From contig NZ_CP127247.1 in assembly GCF_030285785.1 (NCBI RefSeq), positions 3,247,501 through 3,311,500 of the forward strand: a stretch of 64,000 bases of DNA. The letters are read 5' to 3'. Both the position numbers and the translations under genes were made by a program. This document shows positions 7,283-15,937 of the stretch, in pieces. Positions within the stretch are counted from its first letter, which is position 1; each line of letters opens with the position of its first letter. The DNA is from Parasedimentitalea psychrophila (GTDB lineage Bacteria > Pseudomonadota > Alphaproteobacteria > Rhodobacterales > Rhodobacteraceae). The notes beneath the pieces were generated by a model. The model ran no database searches and had not been told where the DNA came from. It worked only from the letters and a program-made list of their open reading frames with translations.

Positions 7283-8467
7283 TCAGCGGGTCAGTTCTTT
7301 CATGCCCTTTTCCAGCCCTGACAGGGTCATCGGCACCATTTGGTCGGCAAAGATCTCGCGCATCATTTTGATCGAATGGGTGTGATCCCAATATTTCTCG
7401 GGCAGCGGATTGATCCACAGGTTGGAGGACCAGCGGTCGCGTGCGCGCTGTAGCCAGACCTGACCGGCCTCGGGGTTCCAGTGTTCATTGGCGCCGCCGG
7501 GATAGGCGATTTCATATGGGCTCATCGAGGCATCGCCGACAAAAATGCATTTGTAGTCTGGGCCATAGGTGCGCAGCACCTCGTGGGTCGGGATCTGCGC
7601 ATCCCAGCGCCGGGCATTATCGCGCCAGACACCTTCATACAGGCAATTGTGGAAATAGTAGTATTCCAGATGCTTGAACTCGCTACGCGCGGCGGAAAAC
7701 AACTCTTCCACCACCTTGATATGCGGATCCATCGAGCCACCTACGTCCAGGAACAGCAGCACTTTGACAGCGTTGTGGCGCTCGGGGCGGGTCTTGACGT
7801 CCAGGTACCCATGTTCAGCGGTGGAGCGAATGGTATTGTCGAGATCCAGCTCTTCATGGGCGCCCTGACGCACCCAGCGCCGCAGGCGTTTCAGCGCCAC
7901 CTTGATGTTGCGGGTGCCCAGTTCGACGTCGCCGTCCAGATTTCTGAATTCGCGTTTGTCCCAGACCTTGACCGCGCGTTGGTGGCGGCTTTCTTTCTGG
8001 CCGATGCGCACGCCCTCGGGGTTGTAGCCATAGGCGCCAAAGGGAGAGGTTCCGGCGGTGCCGACCCACTTGCTGCCGCCCTGATGGCGTCCTTCTTGTT
8101 CTTTAAGGCGCTGTTTCAGGGTTTCCATCAGCTTGTCAAAGCCACCCAGCGCCTCGATCTCGGCGCGCTCTTCCTCTGACATGTGTTTCTCCGCCATTTT
8201 GCGGAGCCACTCTTCGGGGATGTCGACAGCATCCATCACGGCCTGCGCCGGGATCGCCTCTAGCCCTTTAAACGTGGCGGAAAAGGCGCGGTCGAACTTG
8301 TCGATATTGCGCTCATCCTTGACCATGGATGCGCGGGCCAGGAAATAGAAGGCTTCGACGTCATAGGTGGCAAGGCCAGCCTTCAGGCATTCGAGAAACG
8401 TAAGGTATTCGCGCAGGGATACCGGCACTGATGCGTTGCGAAGGTTCTCAAAGAATGGCTGGAACAT
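7283..8467 (-). CDS. CoxE-like VWA-domain protein
   Basis: The C-terminal half carries a von Willebrand A fold with LLFLDVGGSMD near residue 240; the metal-binding motif reads DVGGS where the canonical form is DxSxS, so the first serine is replaced. The N-terminal half is helical and charged. VWA proteins of this group work with MoxR AAA+ ATPases to assemble or remodel protein complexes. Here the MoxR gene lies upstream in the same strand run (11387-10548), separated by three tightly packed genes. The gene starts 4 bases after the stop of the 55-residue membrane protein, so it is the last gene of that operon. Bases 7160-7282 show no gene. Confidence 0.88.
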   Translation of the reverse strand: MFQPFFENLRNASVPVSLREYLTFLECLKAGLATYDVEAFYFLARASMVKDERNIDKFDRAFSATFKGLEAIPAQAVMDAVDIPEEWLRKMAEKHMSEEERAEIEALGGFDKLMETLKQRLKEQEGRHQGGSKWVGTAGTSPFGAYGYNPEGVRIGQKESRHQRAVKVWDKREFRNLDGDVELGTRNIKVALKRLRRWVRQGAHEELDLDNTIRSTAEHGYLDVKTRPERHNAVKVLLFLDVGGSMDPHIKVVEELFSAARSEFKHLEYYYFHNCLYEGVWRDNARRWDAQIPTHEVLRTYGPDYKCIFVGDASMSPYEIAYPGGANEHWNPEAGQVWLQRARDRWSSNLWINPLPEKYWDHTHSIKMMREIFADQMVPMTLSGLEKGMKELTR

Positions 8468-8471
8468 GACC

Positions 8472-8639
8472 TCAGACCGCCAAACGATGCACCATCAGGG
8501 TCAGCAGCATACCGGCCAGGCCCAAAATGATACCATAGGCCGCAGCATATTGAAGAATGTCTCCAAGACCTCCGCCACGCTTTCGGGCCTTGTAGCCGCC
8601 CAGCAGGGCCCCAATAACCAAACCGCCAATTACGATCAT
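8472..8639 (-). CDS. Small membrane protein, 55 residues
   Basis: Translating leftwards from ATG 8639 gives a 55-residue protein with an N-terminal hydrophobic segment (IVIGGLVIGALLGGY), a very basic turn KARKRGGG, and a second hydrophobic segment (YGIILGLAGMLLTLMV). Two transmembrane helices with a positively charged cytoplasmic loop are predicted. The gene sits 3 bases after the DUF2927 gene and 4 bases before the CoxE-like gene, so the spacing strongly supports that it is translated. I do not recognise the family; it may anchor the MoxR/VWA machinery to the membrane, which is inference. Confidence 0.75.
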   Translation of the reverse strand: MIVIGGLVIGALLGGYKARKRGGGLGDILQYAAAYGIILGLAGMLLTLMVHRLAV

Positions 8640-8642
8640 TTT

Positions 8643-10010
8643 CTATCCGCCCGTCAAAGTATTGGGGTTCAGCGCGGCAATTTCATTCAGTCTTGCCCGC
8701 ACCGCCCAGTCTGAGCCGAACCCGTAGCGCGCCCATCCCAGGCTGTCCAGCCTGACGGCGCGTGCCGCGTCAAAATCACCACTCAGCGCCAGTGCTTCGG
8801 CCTGCAGCAGCATCAGGGTGGACAGCAATGTGGCATTTTCAAACCGCGCGGCGGTTGGGATGCTGGGTCGCAACAATGCCTGTGCGGCGCGACCGTTGCC
8901 ACGGGTGATTTCAAAGGCCGCCATACGGGCCGCGATTTGGGCGCGGTGTAATTGGGTGATCGGGGCGTTGCCAAGATGGCGCATTGCTGTCTTGAAGTGG
9001 TCTTGCGCCAGATCCGGGTCAGATCCCTGAACCATGCGGCCCAGAATGAAGTGGCTGAAAGACCGCCGGTGATCTTGCCACCCCAAACGCTTTGCAATAT
9101 CGGCGGCTTGGTTGGCGGCACGTCTGCGGGTTTGACCTGTGGCATTGGGGCCAATGGCGGTTTCCACCGCAGTCACCCATTCGCGCGGGGTTTCTTGCAG
9201 TGGTGCCGAGGGCCGGGACGCTCCCCGGGGATTGATGCGTCTCATAACTGCGGGCAGGCGGGCCGAGACCTCGGCGCGGGTCATCCCGGTTGCCAGCTCG
9301 GGCGCATAAGTGGCGCGCAGGATCAGCATGTCGAAGCCGGTGAGCACCGTATGGACATTGTCGTCGTTGAACACCGAATCCGGCAGTCGGTACAGATCGT
9401 TGAGCGGTCCGATTGCTTGCGCCAGTTCCTCGTGCAGGCAGTCGCGTACCTCTTGCGGGCTGACATCGTTGGGAATGAAAATCGCCAGCCTGGCGCGCTT
9501 GCGCAGCTGTGACCAGTTGGTTTTGGCGCGCCGTCTGTTGCGACGGTATTCGGCCAGTGAGCCGACGTTAGGAACCACAAAGCAGGCCGCCTTTGGCAAC
9601 ACCCGGCGGATCTGGGCGCTGCTGACGGATTCAATGGTGATGACAGCGTTGCTGCTGTCAACGCGGTGAATTTTGATGCCCGCTTCGCTTTGCAATCGCG
9701 ACAGCAGGCGGGTCAGGTCCGGGGTCAGGTTTTTGGCAGGGCGACCGGTGACGCGCAGCGTTATCGGCTGGTCAAACCGGGTGAATACCGGCAGAGAGCT
9801 GCCGCCCTCCAATTTGAAGTGCAGATCCAGAAAATCACGCGCCATATCGCTGTTTGAGCGCTGTGGCGGCAGCGGGCGTGTTGTCCCAAACCGTTTGACA
9901 GGCGGCAAGGCGCTGTCAGCGATGCGGGCGCGCGTCGGCGGCGGCTCCAGCGGAATGGTGTTGCAGCCACCCAGTAATAGGGTCGAGATCAAGACGGCGC
10001 GCCAGATCAT
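8643..10010 (-). CDS. DUF2927 domain lipoprotein
   Basis: The product (455 residues) has a lipoprotein signal with LLLGGCN, Cys16 being the likely lipidation site. The middle part has the DUF2927 signature: a conserved CLHEELAQAIGPLNDLYRLP segment followed by SVFNDDNVHTVLTGFDMLIL. The HEE pair resembles a metalloprotease-type motif but no activity is established. The C-terminal third is alpha-helical and repeat-like (TPR-type). Its start overlaps the GNAT gene's stop by 4 bases (ATGA), and the 55-residue membrane protein follows 3 bases later, so all are co-transcribed. Confidence 0.85.
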   Translation of the reverse strand: MIWRAVLISTLLLGGCNTIPLEPPPTRARIADSALPPVKRFGTTRPLPPQRSNSDMARDFLDLHFKLEGGSSLPVFTRFDQPITLRVTGRPAKNLTPDLTRLLSRLQSEAGIKIHRVDSSNAVITIESVSSAQIRRVLPKAACFVVPNVGSLAEYRRNRRRAKTNWSQLRKRARLAIFIPNDVSPQEVRDCLHEELAQAIGPLNDLYRLPDSVFNDDNVHTVLTGFDMLILRATYAPELATGMTRAEVSARLPAVMRRINPRGASRPSAPLQETPREWVTAVETAIGPNATGQTRRRAANQAADIAKRLGWQDHRRSFSHFILGRMVQGSDPDLAQDHFKTAMRHLGNAPITQLHRAQIAARMAAFEITRGNGRAAQALLRPSIPTAARFENATLLSTLMLLQAEALALSGDFDAARAVRLDSLGWARYGFGSDWAVRARLNEIAALNPNTLTGG

Positions 10011-14157: not shown

Positions 14158-14508
14158 CTCAGGTCTCCTGTTGGGCTGAGTGAGATCTATTGCCGATGTT
14201 GGCGGCAGGGGCAAGCTGGCGATGTGAACATGGCGACCGAATCGGGCGCTGGGGCGATCAATTTGATAGTGAAATATCGCAAAATAAACCCTCGGTATGG
14301 TTAAGAAGTCTTGCAGTTTTGCGGTAGCGGGTGCTGGTGGTTGAATATTTTTTGATTATTTATTGAGCAATTATTTCATGGAGTTGTGACGCGAAGCTCT
14401 CTGAAATATGAGATATCATACAATTATGAGTATATTTTAGAAACAAATATCGCGTTAAGAGTGCAACTGCGATCTGTGCCCATTCAACCCGTTTAAGGAG
14501 TTTATTCC
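14158..14508. other. AT-rich intergenic region before the 21-residue-repeat gene
   Basis: This 351-base gap separates the divergent xthA and the repeat-protein gene. From about 14335 to 14460 it is distinctly AT-rich for this chromosome, with runs such as ATATTTTTTGATTATTTATTG and AGTATATTTTAGAAAC, so it probably holds the promoter of the repeat-protein unit, but I cannot assign a confident -35/-10 pair. AAGGAG lies just before the ATG at 14509. No gene seen. Confidence 0.5.
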
Positions 14509-14802
14509 ATGACCGCTCTTCGTAAAAATACAGCGTTTACCAGTGACCACGTATCCACAGTGTCCAGTCTTTTTGACGGTGATGACACCGCATTGTTTTC
14601 CTCTGGCTCCATTGCTGAGATGAGCGCCGATATTTTCAATGGAGAGGCAATCGGCGCCTTTTCTTCGGGATCGGCTCCGACCTCTGTATCCGCGTGTTTG
14701 GCAGGTGAGGGCACTCAATTGTTTTCCTCGGGCTCCGCGCCAACCCGGCTTCAGTTGACCACTTTGGGCGAGGGGACGCAGATGTTCTCGTCAGGCAGCT
14801 AA
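14509..14802 (+). CDS. Tandem-repeat protein, four 21-residue units each ending FSSGS
   Basis: The 97-residue product has a 13-residue head and then exactly four 21-residue units (residues 14-34, 35-55, 56-76, 77-97). Each unit has an invariant Gly at position 11, usually followed by an acid, and ends in the invariant FSSGS; the last unit ends at the stop codon. There is one cysteine (Cys63), no signal peptide and no membrane segment. AAGGAG before ATG 14509 makes translation credible, and a 356-residue gene of unknown function follows 64 bases later. I do not recognise it; it may match a roseobacter DUF (possibly DUF6749, unverified). It could be a modified peptide precursor, a scaffold or a self-assembling protein; none is shown. 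Confidence 0.8.
   Translation: MTALRKNTAFTSDHVSTVSSLFDGDDTALFSSGSIAEMSADIFNGEAIGAFSSGSAPTSVSACLAGEGTQLFSSGSAPTRLQLTTLGEGTQMFSSGS
14548..14799 (+). repeat. In-frame tandem repeat, 4 x 63 bp
   Basis: Four 63-bp coding units without any length variation. At DNA level the FSSGS codons differ among copies (TTTTCCTCTGGCTCC, TTTTCTTCGGGATCG, TTTTCCTCGGGCTCC, TTCTCGTCAGGCAGC), so the units have diverged at synonymous sites while the peptide end stayed fixed, which points to selection on the protein rather than a fresh duplication. Confidence 0.85.
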
Positions 14803-14866
14803 CAGCGCCTGCTCTTTGCCCCATCAGGGCGCCTTGTGATTACGTGGACTGAAAGAAAGTTATCGA

Positions 14867-15937
14867 ATGTCAAACGTCATTCCACTCAGGGCGCCAGGTG
14901 CGCAACCCAGTTTTGATCAGCAATGCACTGCGCTCATTGATAATTTTGCACAGCACCGGCGACAGCAAGGCGATGTGTTCTGGCTAAAGGAAAATGCCGA
15001 GCTGTTGAATATTTTGGAATGCACCGGGGCCAAGTTTAGCGAAGACCAGCTGCGGCCACTGATCAGTTTCTACCATCAGATCGAAGATCAGATATGCTTT
15101 TTCCAGCAATATTATCGCTTCATTTTGTCGATTTGCCTGGATCTTGAGGATCTGGGGCTGGCGGGACGCAAGGGTGAAGATATTGCCTATTGGGTGGCGC
15201 AGCAGGGGTTGGCCGAGGCCGAGTTGTCAGACCTTCAACGTGCTGAAGCGCACCGGCTGATGCAGCGGCGCGGCATCAAGGCCGTCGGCGATTATGCCGC
15301 CCTGGAACACCGCCTTCGCTGCTTCATCAATCGATCTGACACATTTGCGCTGCCCAATCGCAAAGCGGCCTATGAGTTGACCCATATCGTGTTCTACCTG
15401 TCGGAGTACGGTCGTCTTGATCCGCAGCTGGAGTCGAGCGCGCTGATCAGTCTCGAATATGCCGGGCTGCTGGCCTATCTGGATCAGAACTCGGACCTGC
15501 TGGCAGAGGTGTGTATCGCCTTGCACTATGCCGGAAAGCCGCCACCGGTGGAATGGATGGGCTGGCTTTTGCGGCAGACGGCTGGTTTTGTTCTGACCGG
15601 CGATGGCCCGGGGCAGACACCGGACGCATATCACCAGTATTTTGTGTGCAACTGGCTGATGGCGGCGACGCAGCACTCATATTTTGCGCAGCGGGTGCCG
15701 CCGGGAGCGATGCAGATCAGGCAAAGCGCCAGCCGAACCGGGCCGCTGCGGCAGATGTCACAGATGTTATATGAACTGCAGGATCACAGGAGCGCCGACT
15801 GGCCCTTGATGCGGCGGCATTTGCAATCCGGCCTGAGCCAGGAATTCCATGATATTTTGAGCGCCGCCGAAAGCAGTACCAGCAATTTTGAACGCTTCTT
15901 TGCTGGGTTCGCTCGGGCCGGCACGGCCTTTGCCTAG
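14867..15937 (+). CDS. Protein of unknown function next to the FSSGS repeat protein
   Basis: The 356-residue product is largely alpha-helical and soluble, with no signal peptide. Recognisable blocks are FYHQIEDQICFFQQYYRF near residues 66-83, and YELTHIVFYLSEYGRLDP near 168-185, whose His and acidic residues look like a possible active or binding site; CIALHYAG and HQYFVCNWLM follow. I do not recognise the family with confidence (possibly DUF6902, unverified). The gene sits 64 bases downstream of the repeat protein in the same direction and GAAAGAAAG precedes its ATG, so the two are likely co-expressed. A role in processing or binding the repeat protein is inference from adjacency only. Confidence 0.75.
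   Translation: MSNVIPLRAPGAQPSFDQQCTALIDNFAQHRRQQGDVFWLKENAELLNILECTGAKFSEDQLRPLISFYHQIEDQICFFQQYYRFILSICLDLEDLGLAGRKGEDIAYWVAQQGLAEAELSDLQRAEAHRLMQRRGIKAVGDYAALEHRLRCFINRSDTFALPNRKAAYELTHIVFYLSEYGRLDPQLESSALISLEYAGLLAYLDQNSDLLAEVCIALHYAGKPPPVEWMGWLLRQTAGFVLTGDGPGQTPDAYHQYFVCNWLMAATQHSYFAQRVPPGAMQIRQSASRTGPLRQMSQMLYELQDHRSADWPLMRRHLQSGLSQEFHDILSAAESSTSNFERFFAGFARAGTAFA

Follow-up and report, generated by a model that had tools for sequence, protein, structure and literature searches.

A repeat-peptide gene and its DUF6902 partner at a locus of marine Roseobacter bacteria: a probable multicore modified-peptide system

The window analysed here, a stretch of 64,000 nucleotides from the genome of Parasedimentitalea psychrophila (contig NZ_CP127247.1, positions 3,247,501 to 3,311,500), carries on its forward strand a short gene for a repetitive protein, here called the putative precursor, and directly behind it a gene of family DUF6902. 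The precursor open reading frame (ORF), identified from the ORF list and the sequence, encodes 97 residues (14509..14802), starts with ATG and is preceded by a ribosome-binding site AAGGAG (14495..14500). Residues 1 to 29 (14509..14595) form the leader and the first spacer, with a start of the MTA(L/Q)xK type that is frequent among relatives. Four units of 21 residues were delimited (residues 14-34, 35-55, 56-76 and 77-97), each closed by the pentapeptide FSSGS, hereafter termed the core (14596..14610, 14659..14673, 14722..14736 and 14785..14799). An original prediction, made from the letters of this DNA, had described four exact units with Gly at unit position 11 and FSSGS at positions 17 to 21, the last unit ending at the stop codon. 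The unit alignment bore this out, these positions being the sole invariant ones and the fourth core abutting the stop codon. The predicted difference in FSSGS codons between copies was likewise found, as the four cores are written in four distinct codon strings; pairwise, the units had 18 to 39 of 63 bases in common. When the precursor was shuffled 20,000 times, any 5-mer in at least four copies was obtained just once. The cores of the window contain no Cys.

The partner gene (14867..15937, forward strand) begins 64 bases past the stop codon of the precursor gene, as had been predicted, and encodes 356 residues. It was assigned, from Pfam, alignment and structure modelling, as a putative peptide-modifying enzyme with an alpha/alpha toroid model. 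The Pfam search proposed for both proteins succeeded for the partner, which matched DUF6902 over its full length (PF21843, residues 1-351, E=2.2e-152, 507.5 bits for a cut-off of 27) and also DUF6895 (PF21836, E=8.9e-21, 74.9 bits for a cut-off of 23.8), and yielded no family for the precursor. NCBIfam and PADLOC contained no match for either protein of the window. An alignment of 13 proteins from three phyla, including seven DUF6895-type members, displayed eight invariant residues, the start Met being left out of the count: W39, Y169, H173, G182, D210, E214, Y255 and H256. W39 apart, they fall into the conserved motifs Y169-xx-TH173-xx-F-Y...G182 (15371..15412), D210-L-L-A-E214 (15494..15508) and Y255-H256 (15629..15634). 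The block YELTHIVFYLSEYG includes three of the eight (Y169, H173 and G182). The structure model was confident (pLDDT 92) and toroid-like. It is predicted to resemble protein prenyltransferase beta subunits and terpene cyclases, at 7% identity, and such a helical arrangement, even if shared, says nothing on function. In the PDB, no convincing sequence relative of the enzyme family was retrieved (single match, E=0.6).

Analysis of the distribution of DUF6902 placed it in 23 of 121 genomes, that of the window among them (22 above cut-off), and, within the window's family, in 108 of 394 genomes sampled. A named genome collection yielded 335 confirmed stretches, strains of Ruegeria, Leisingera and Roseovarius being among the sources. 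The loci analysed from that collection were the best 80 of these 335 stretches, all labelled as Rhodobacteraceae, Paracoccaceae, their genera, or as Rhodobacterales or alphaproteobacterial genomes. A search of plasmids gave no DUF6902 match. The locus is one of two or three genes in marine Roseobacter bacteria. A same-strand tandem-repeat ORF was located directly 5' of DUF6902 in 80 of 80 loci of the named collection, where it was chosen by a motif rule and the count rests on the sequences read, and in 19 of 20 further loci; repeats were also present at the DUF6902 locus of genome G002. This amounts to 99 of 100 loci, or 93 of 94 distinct ones, six being common to both collections (these duplicates are included in the counts of units, core spacings, exact cores and core pairs given below). 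At the lone exception (L045, around 8001-8981), a divergent DUF6902 protein without the His motif was encoded with no precursor nearby; judged by its sequence, it is a decayed or repurposed copy.

The locus is usually flanked by an exonuclease III gene upstream and by a pair encoding an Fe-S protein and an HD hydrolase downstream. Genes xth, erpA and dgt were each recorded in 92 of the 99 loci matched by the DUF6902 query, the remaining ones either stopping early or carrying other genes there. The site beside erpA, the only one read for this comparison, was inspected in 40 of the 49 genomes of the family that have an ErpA match and no DUF6902. None of the 40 had a match there for DUF6902, for a repeat ORF (motif rule) or for an EamA permease, and xth was found at 36 of them. 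Because all were absent from these empty sites, precursor, DUF6902 and, where it occurs, EamA appear to be gained or lost as a unit. Repeat protein and partner co-occur across genomes, as the original prediction would require.

The third gene, encoding an EamA-type permease, begins right after DUF6902 in 67 of the 99 loci that extend far enough. The copy of Ruegeria pomeroyi (L096), on which Pfam was run, matched EamA with E=1.7e-13. The gene is missing after DUF6902 in the genus of the window and in several others, and an operon-type EamA orthologue was not found elsewhere in the window's genome (best identity 32%).

Core types differed by lineage and included FSSGS, FTSGS, FTSGL, FTSSL, FTSSM, FTSSI and FTTSL, further FTSAS, FSSAS, FCSAS, FSSCS, FSTSC, FVSGL, FMSGS and FPSGS, as well as FTSWS, FVSWS, FTNWC, IMSAS and YIAGL, among others. 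Among 657 exact cores, position 1 was F in 648 and position 3 was S in 614, and a Gly stood six residues ahead in 623. A recognition-like stretch, G-(D/E)-x-(V/T)-x-(M/L/A), usually came before each core and a variable spacer beginning with A-P mostly followed it. The original prediction had expected the number of repeats to vary around a fixed 21-residue period. Its first part stood, with 2 to 16 units per precursor by automatic count, and its second did not: core-to-core spacings were 21 (n=325), 20 (n=209), 8 (n=39) and 17 (n=8) residues, besides rarer values. Neither the separation of the two genes nor the loss of the period, both named beforehand as speaking against the proposal, was seen, since the genes co-occur and a regular spacing of 20-21 or of 8 residues survives. 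The 8-residue form, in which three residues separate the cores, was recorded in Shimia-type proteins (L100, L104, L113, L122 and L132) and in L071 and L075. The long spacer is dispensable, because some cores of this form stand three residues apart.

These spacings bear on the possibility that the repeat protein persists as a structural or binding protein, such as a scaffold or an array of linear motifs, with DUF6902 as its partner and no peptide product. The regular spacing of 20-21 residues would suit such a protein, as would the fact that no peptidase was recognised beside the precursor in the window. However, the fall of the period to 8 in Shimia-type proteins and L075, where three residues separate the cores, the switching of all cores together in relatives and the ordinary short peptide genes adjoining DUF6895 kin (see below) make this explanation unlikely. 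A beta-solenoid was ruled out for the precursor by the 8-residue periods. Pfam matches on repetitive precursors (palmitoyl thioesterase, S1, UBA and others) were discarded as repeat artefacts; three of them exceeded the curated whole-protein cut-off, and no single stretch passed alone.

Cores within one protein were alike to an extent that their DNA was not. Among 2513 core pairs inside one protein, 2309 were residue-identical and just 205 of these DNA-identical, and a core was shared by 810 of 4851 between-protein pairs. Codon identity at core positions 2-5 was 0.40-0.50, not above that of the spacers (0.42-0.71), and reached 0.79 at position 1 (Phe, two codons). Since gene conversion would leave codons alike, we infer that selection keeps one exact core per protein. 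Some related species, as far as their sequences can tell, have swapped all cores together by separate codon changes. L062, with six FSSGS cores, and L063, with seven FTSGS cores, are identical over their first 71 bases, and the codons at core position 2 read TCC/ACG in the first unit, TCG/ACG in the second and TCT/ACT in the last, the pairing of the middle units being uncertain. Likewise, L092 and L124 each comprise four units at equal spacings; positions 2 and 5 of the core differ in all four, by differing codons, with 44 of 68 residues alike outside the cores. Odd units, FMSCS in L092 and FSSGA in L058, are as expected of intermediates. Recent tandem duplication without selection could account for near-identical units in some proteins (L028/L073 and L037), but as an origin of core uniformity it is scarcely credible and was rejected, given the low share of DNA-identical core pairs, the codon identity at positions 2-5 and the four orthologous L092/L124 units that differ at the same two positions through different codons.

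On a DUF6902 tree of 90 rows, the core label requires 34 changes (minimum 24, shuffled mean 58). Co-variation between enzyme and core was limited to at most six independent pairs on supported branches, columns 339 and 267 scoring about the same as column 259, and is suggestive only.

The match to DUF6895 bears on what the partner may do. A 2026 review (PMC13352647), the one text found to name DUF6895, cites Shi et al., ACS Catal. 2026, the title of which calls DUF6895 a lasso-peptide epimerase. DUF6902 proteins have 16-18% identity to DUF6895 proteins, match the DUF6895 profile and have the eight invariant residues in common with the seven DUF6895-type proteins aligned. A second likeness concerns gene company. 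In six of six DUF6895 loci examined outside the family (Pseudomonadota, Actinomycetota and Bacillota; two below-cut-off matches, G192 and G203, left out), a gene for a short peptide was found close to DUF6895. Five loci have it immediately upstream (L134 and L135 from Pseudomonadota, Kitasatospora, Pseudalkalibacillus and a Streptomyces); in S. fungicidicus it lies one gene further away. Common to the peptides of L134, L182 and L184 are an (A/S)G(I/L)(V/I)D stretch that looks like a leader and an aromatic part at the C terminus. This company supports, independently of the paper title, a general role of DUF6895 in peptide maturation. A search for DUF6895 across the order of G221 was positive for 1 of 199, G221 itself alone. 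As a separate observation, the S. fungicidicus plasmid L185 (4833-8688) groups genes for a P450, a 62-residue peptide, a 231-residue protein, two adjacent DUF6895 proteins and a beta-lactamase-type hydrolase, likely a cluster for a ribosomally synthesised and post-translationally modified peptide (RiPP).

DUF6902 is thus probably a peptide-modifying enzyme, and likely an epimerase. It is possible, if less probable, that it is a RiPP maturase with another chemistry on the core, e.g. crosslinking, hydrolysis or group transfer. The low identity to DUF6895 proteins, a fold that may be like that of prenyltransferase beta subunits and terpene cyclases, and an epimerase claim built on a title would all be compatible with this. 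The eight invariant positions common to seven DUF6895 proteins point the other way, as does the lack, in most core types, of the Cys, Lys or acid needed for usual crosslinks.

Taken together, our data are best explained by a multicore RiPP locus in which an alpha/alpha-toroid maturase, probably a peptide epimerase, modifies the short cores; we put the probability of this reading at about 0.6. It is supported by the co-occurrence of the genes, the variable unit number, the relation to an epimerase family and the selection for alike cores. Of the two ideas voiced in the original prediction, that of a multi-core modified peptide has gained from these same points, whereas no positive evidence arose for a scaffold/adaptor pair. 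The RiPP part of the reading is strong at the sequence level: a precursor gene adjoins, and is co-inherited with, a modifying-enzyme gene (99 of 100 loci; 40 of 40 empty sites), and several alike cores are separated by variable spacers. Epimerisation, cleavage and export of the core peptides we infer. In the precursor, a short leader would be followed by one core repeated several times (FSSGS in the window). DUF6902 would recognise and bind the G-(D/E)-x-(V/T)-x-(M/L/A) stretch and the core in each unit, and would most likely invert the alpha carbon of one residue per core, like its DUF6895 relative according to the title cited. Catalysis would proceed through the conserved set H173/D210/E214/H256, plus Y169/Y255, perhaps with a metal. 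Host proteases would then release the short peptides, and EamA would export them where present (two thirds of loci; not in the window's genus).

Known systems resemble the proposed one in part. Multicore RiPPs such as cyanobactins, dikaritins and graspetides have several cores and spacers per precursor; they differ in their modifying enzymes, and in that the present cores stay uniform within a protein and switch jointly between species. Precursors of peptide pheromones, yeast alpha-factor for one, also hold one short peptide in several copies, with a sequence that differs between species, as here. They differ in that a signal sequence or receptor was not identified for the present precursor, for which modification would be intracellular. 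The lasso-peptide epimerase MslH has a metallophosphatase-like fold, unlike the toroid predicted for DUF6902. MslH acts on a residue of a ribosomal peptide, by metal-dependent acid/base catalysis according to the title of its report (PMC10406935), and epimerisation of such a residue is what is proposed for DUF6902. Compared with the DUF6895 lasso epimerase, the present precursor differs by its many short cores. Neither lasso cyclase (asparagine-synthetase-like) nor B peptidase genes were recognised by Pfam among eight ORFs between 11.5 and 21 kb of the window, which gave DksA, an FAD monooxygenase, an exonuclease, an Fe-S protein, an HD hydrolase, ArgRS, SPOR and one ORF without family.

In open-licence PubMed Central text, no paper naming DUF6902 or its accession PF21843 was found, and titles and abstracts there on peptide epimerases, roseobacter or multicore RiPPs held nothing on the DUF6902 locus. 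As far as these sources extend, the locus of the proposed multicore RiPP and its maturase is undescribed; the one published member found for the maturase family is, by its title, a lasso epimerase. A function and a substrate are thereby proposed for the uncharacterised family DUF6902. It is unusual for all cores to switch at once between related species, which can be tested directly, and the locus offers natural enzyme/core pairs for studying the substrate choice of peptide-modifying enzymes. Should the product be exported, these marine bacteria would make an unknown peptide. A more speculative extension, which we regard as improbable, is a Gram-negative family-wide signal: multi-copy precursors would release a species-specific D-residue peptide, cores and enzyme pocket would switch together, and a promoter with DnaA-box-like repeats on either side would tie production to chromosome replication in many species. 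If true, selection for one exact signal per species would explain why the cores switch together with the enzyme pocket.

The promoter region of 76 of the 80 named-collection loci (all except L073, L110, L124 and L128) was scanned for the DnaA box TTATCCACA in its reverse-complement form, TGTGGATAA. Exact TGTGGATAA occurred within 300 bases upstream of the precursor in 41 of 76 loci, for 0.25 in shuffles. With up to one mismatch over 450 bases, at least one copy was present in 52 and at least two in 46 of the 76. Paired direct repeats (e.g. L096 and L060) most commonly lay 76 bases apart. Of 380 random windows taken from the same loci, 9 had at least two such boxes; of 36 empty sites, none did. 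An exact same-strand pair was present in 6 of 121 genomes, within the window's family just in G012 and G038, both times at the DUF6902 locus; the window's own genus is devoid of paired DnaA-box-like repeats.

Two minor observations concern the non-coding DNA. The gap between precursor and DUF6902 (14803-14866), like the same gap in relatives, contains a GC-rich potential hairpin (GGGGCG...CGCC). It was recurrent by eye and was not retained as a candidate: RNAalifold gave no pairs, and nine of ten single folds did not clearly beat shuffles, that of L122 doing so. In 43 of 76 loci, as a raw count, a GTGCAAGCGT-like motif (up to one mismatch) stood about 45-50 bases ahead of the start of the precursor.
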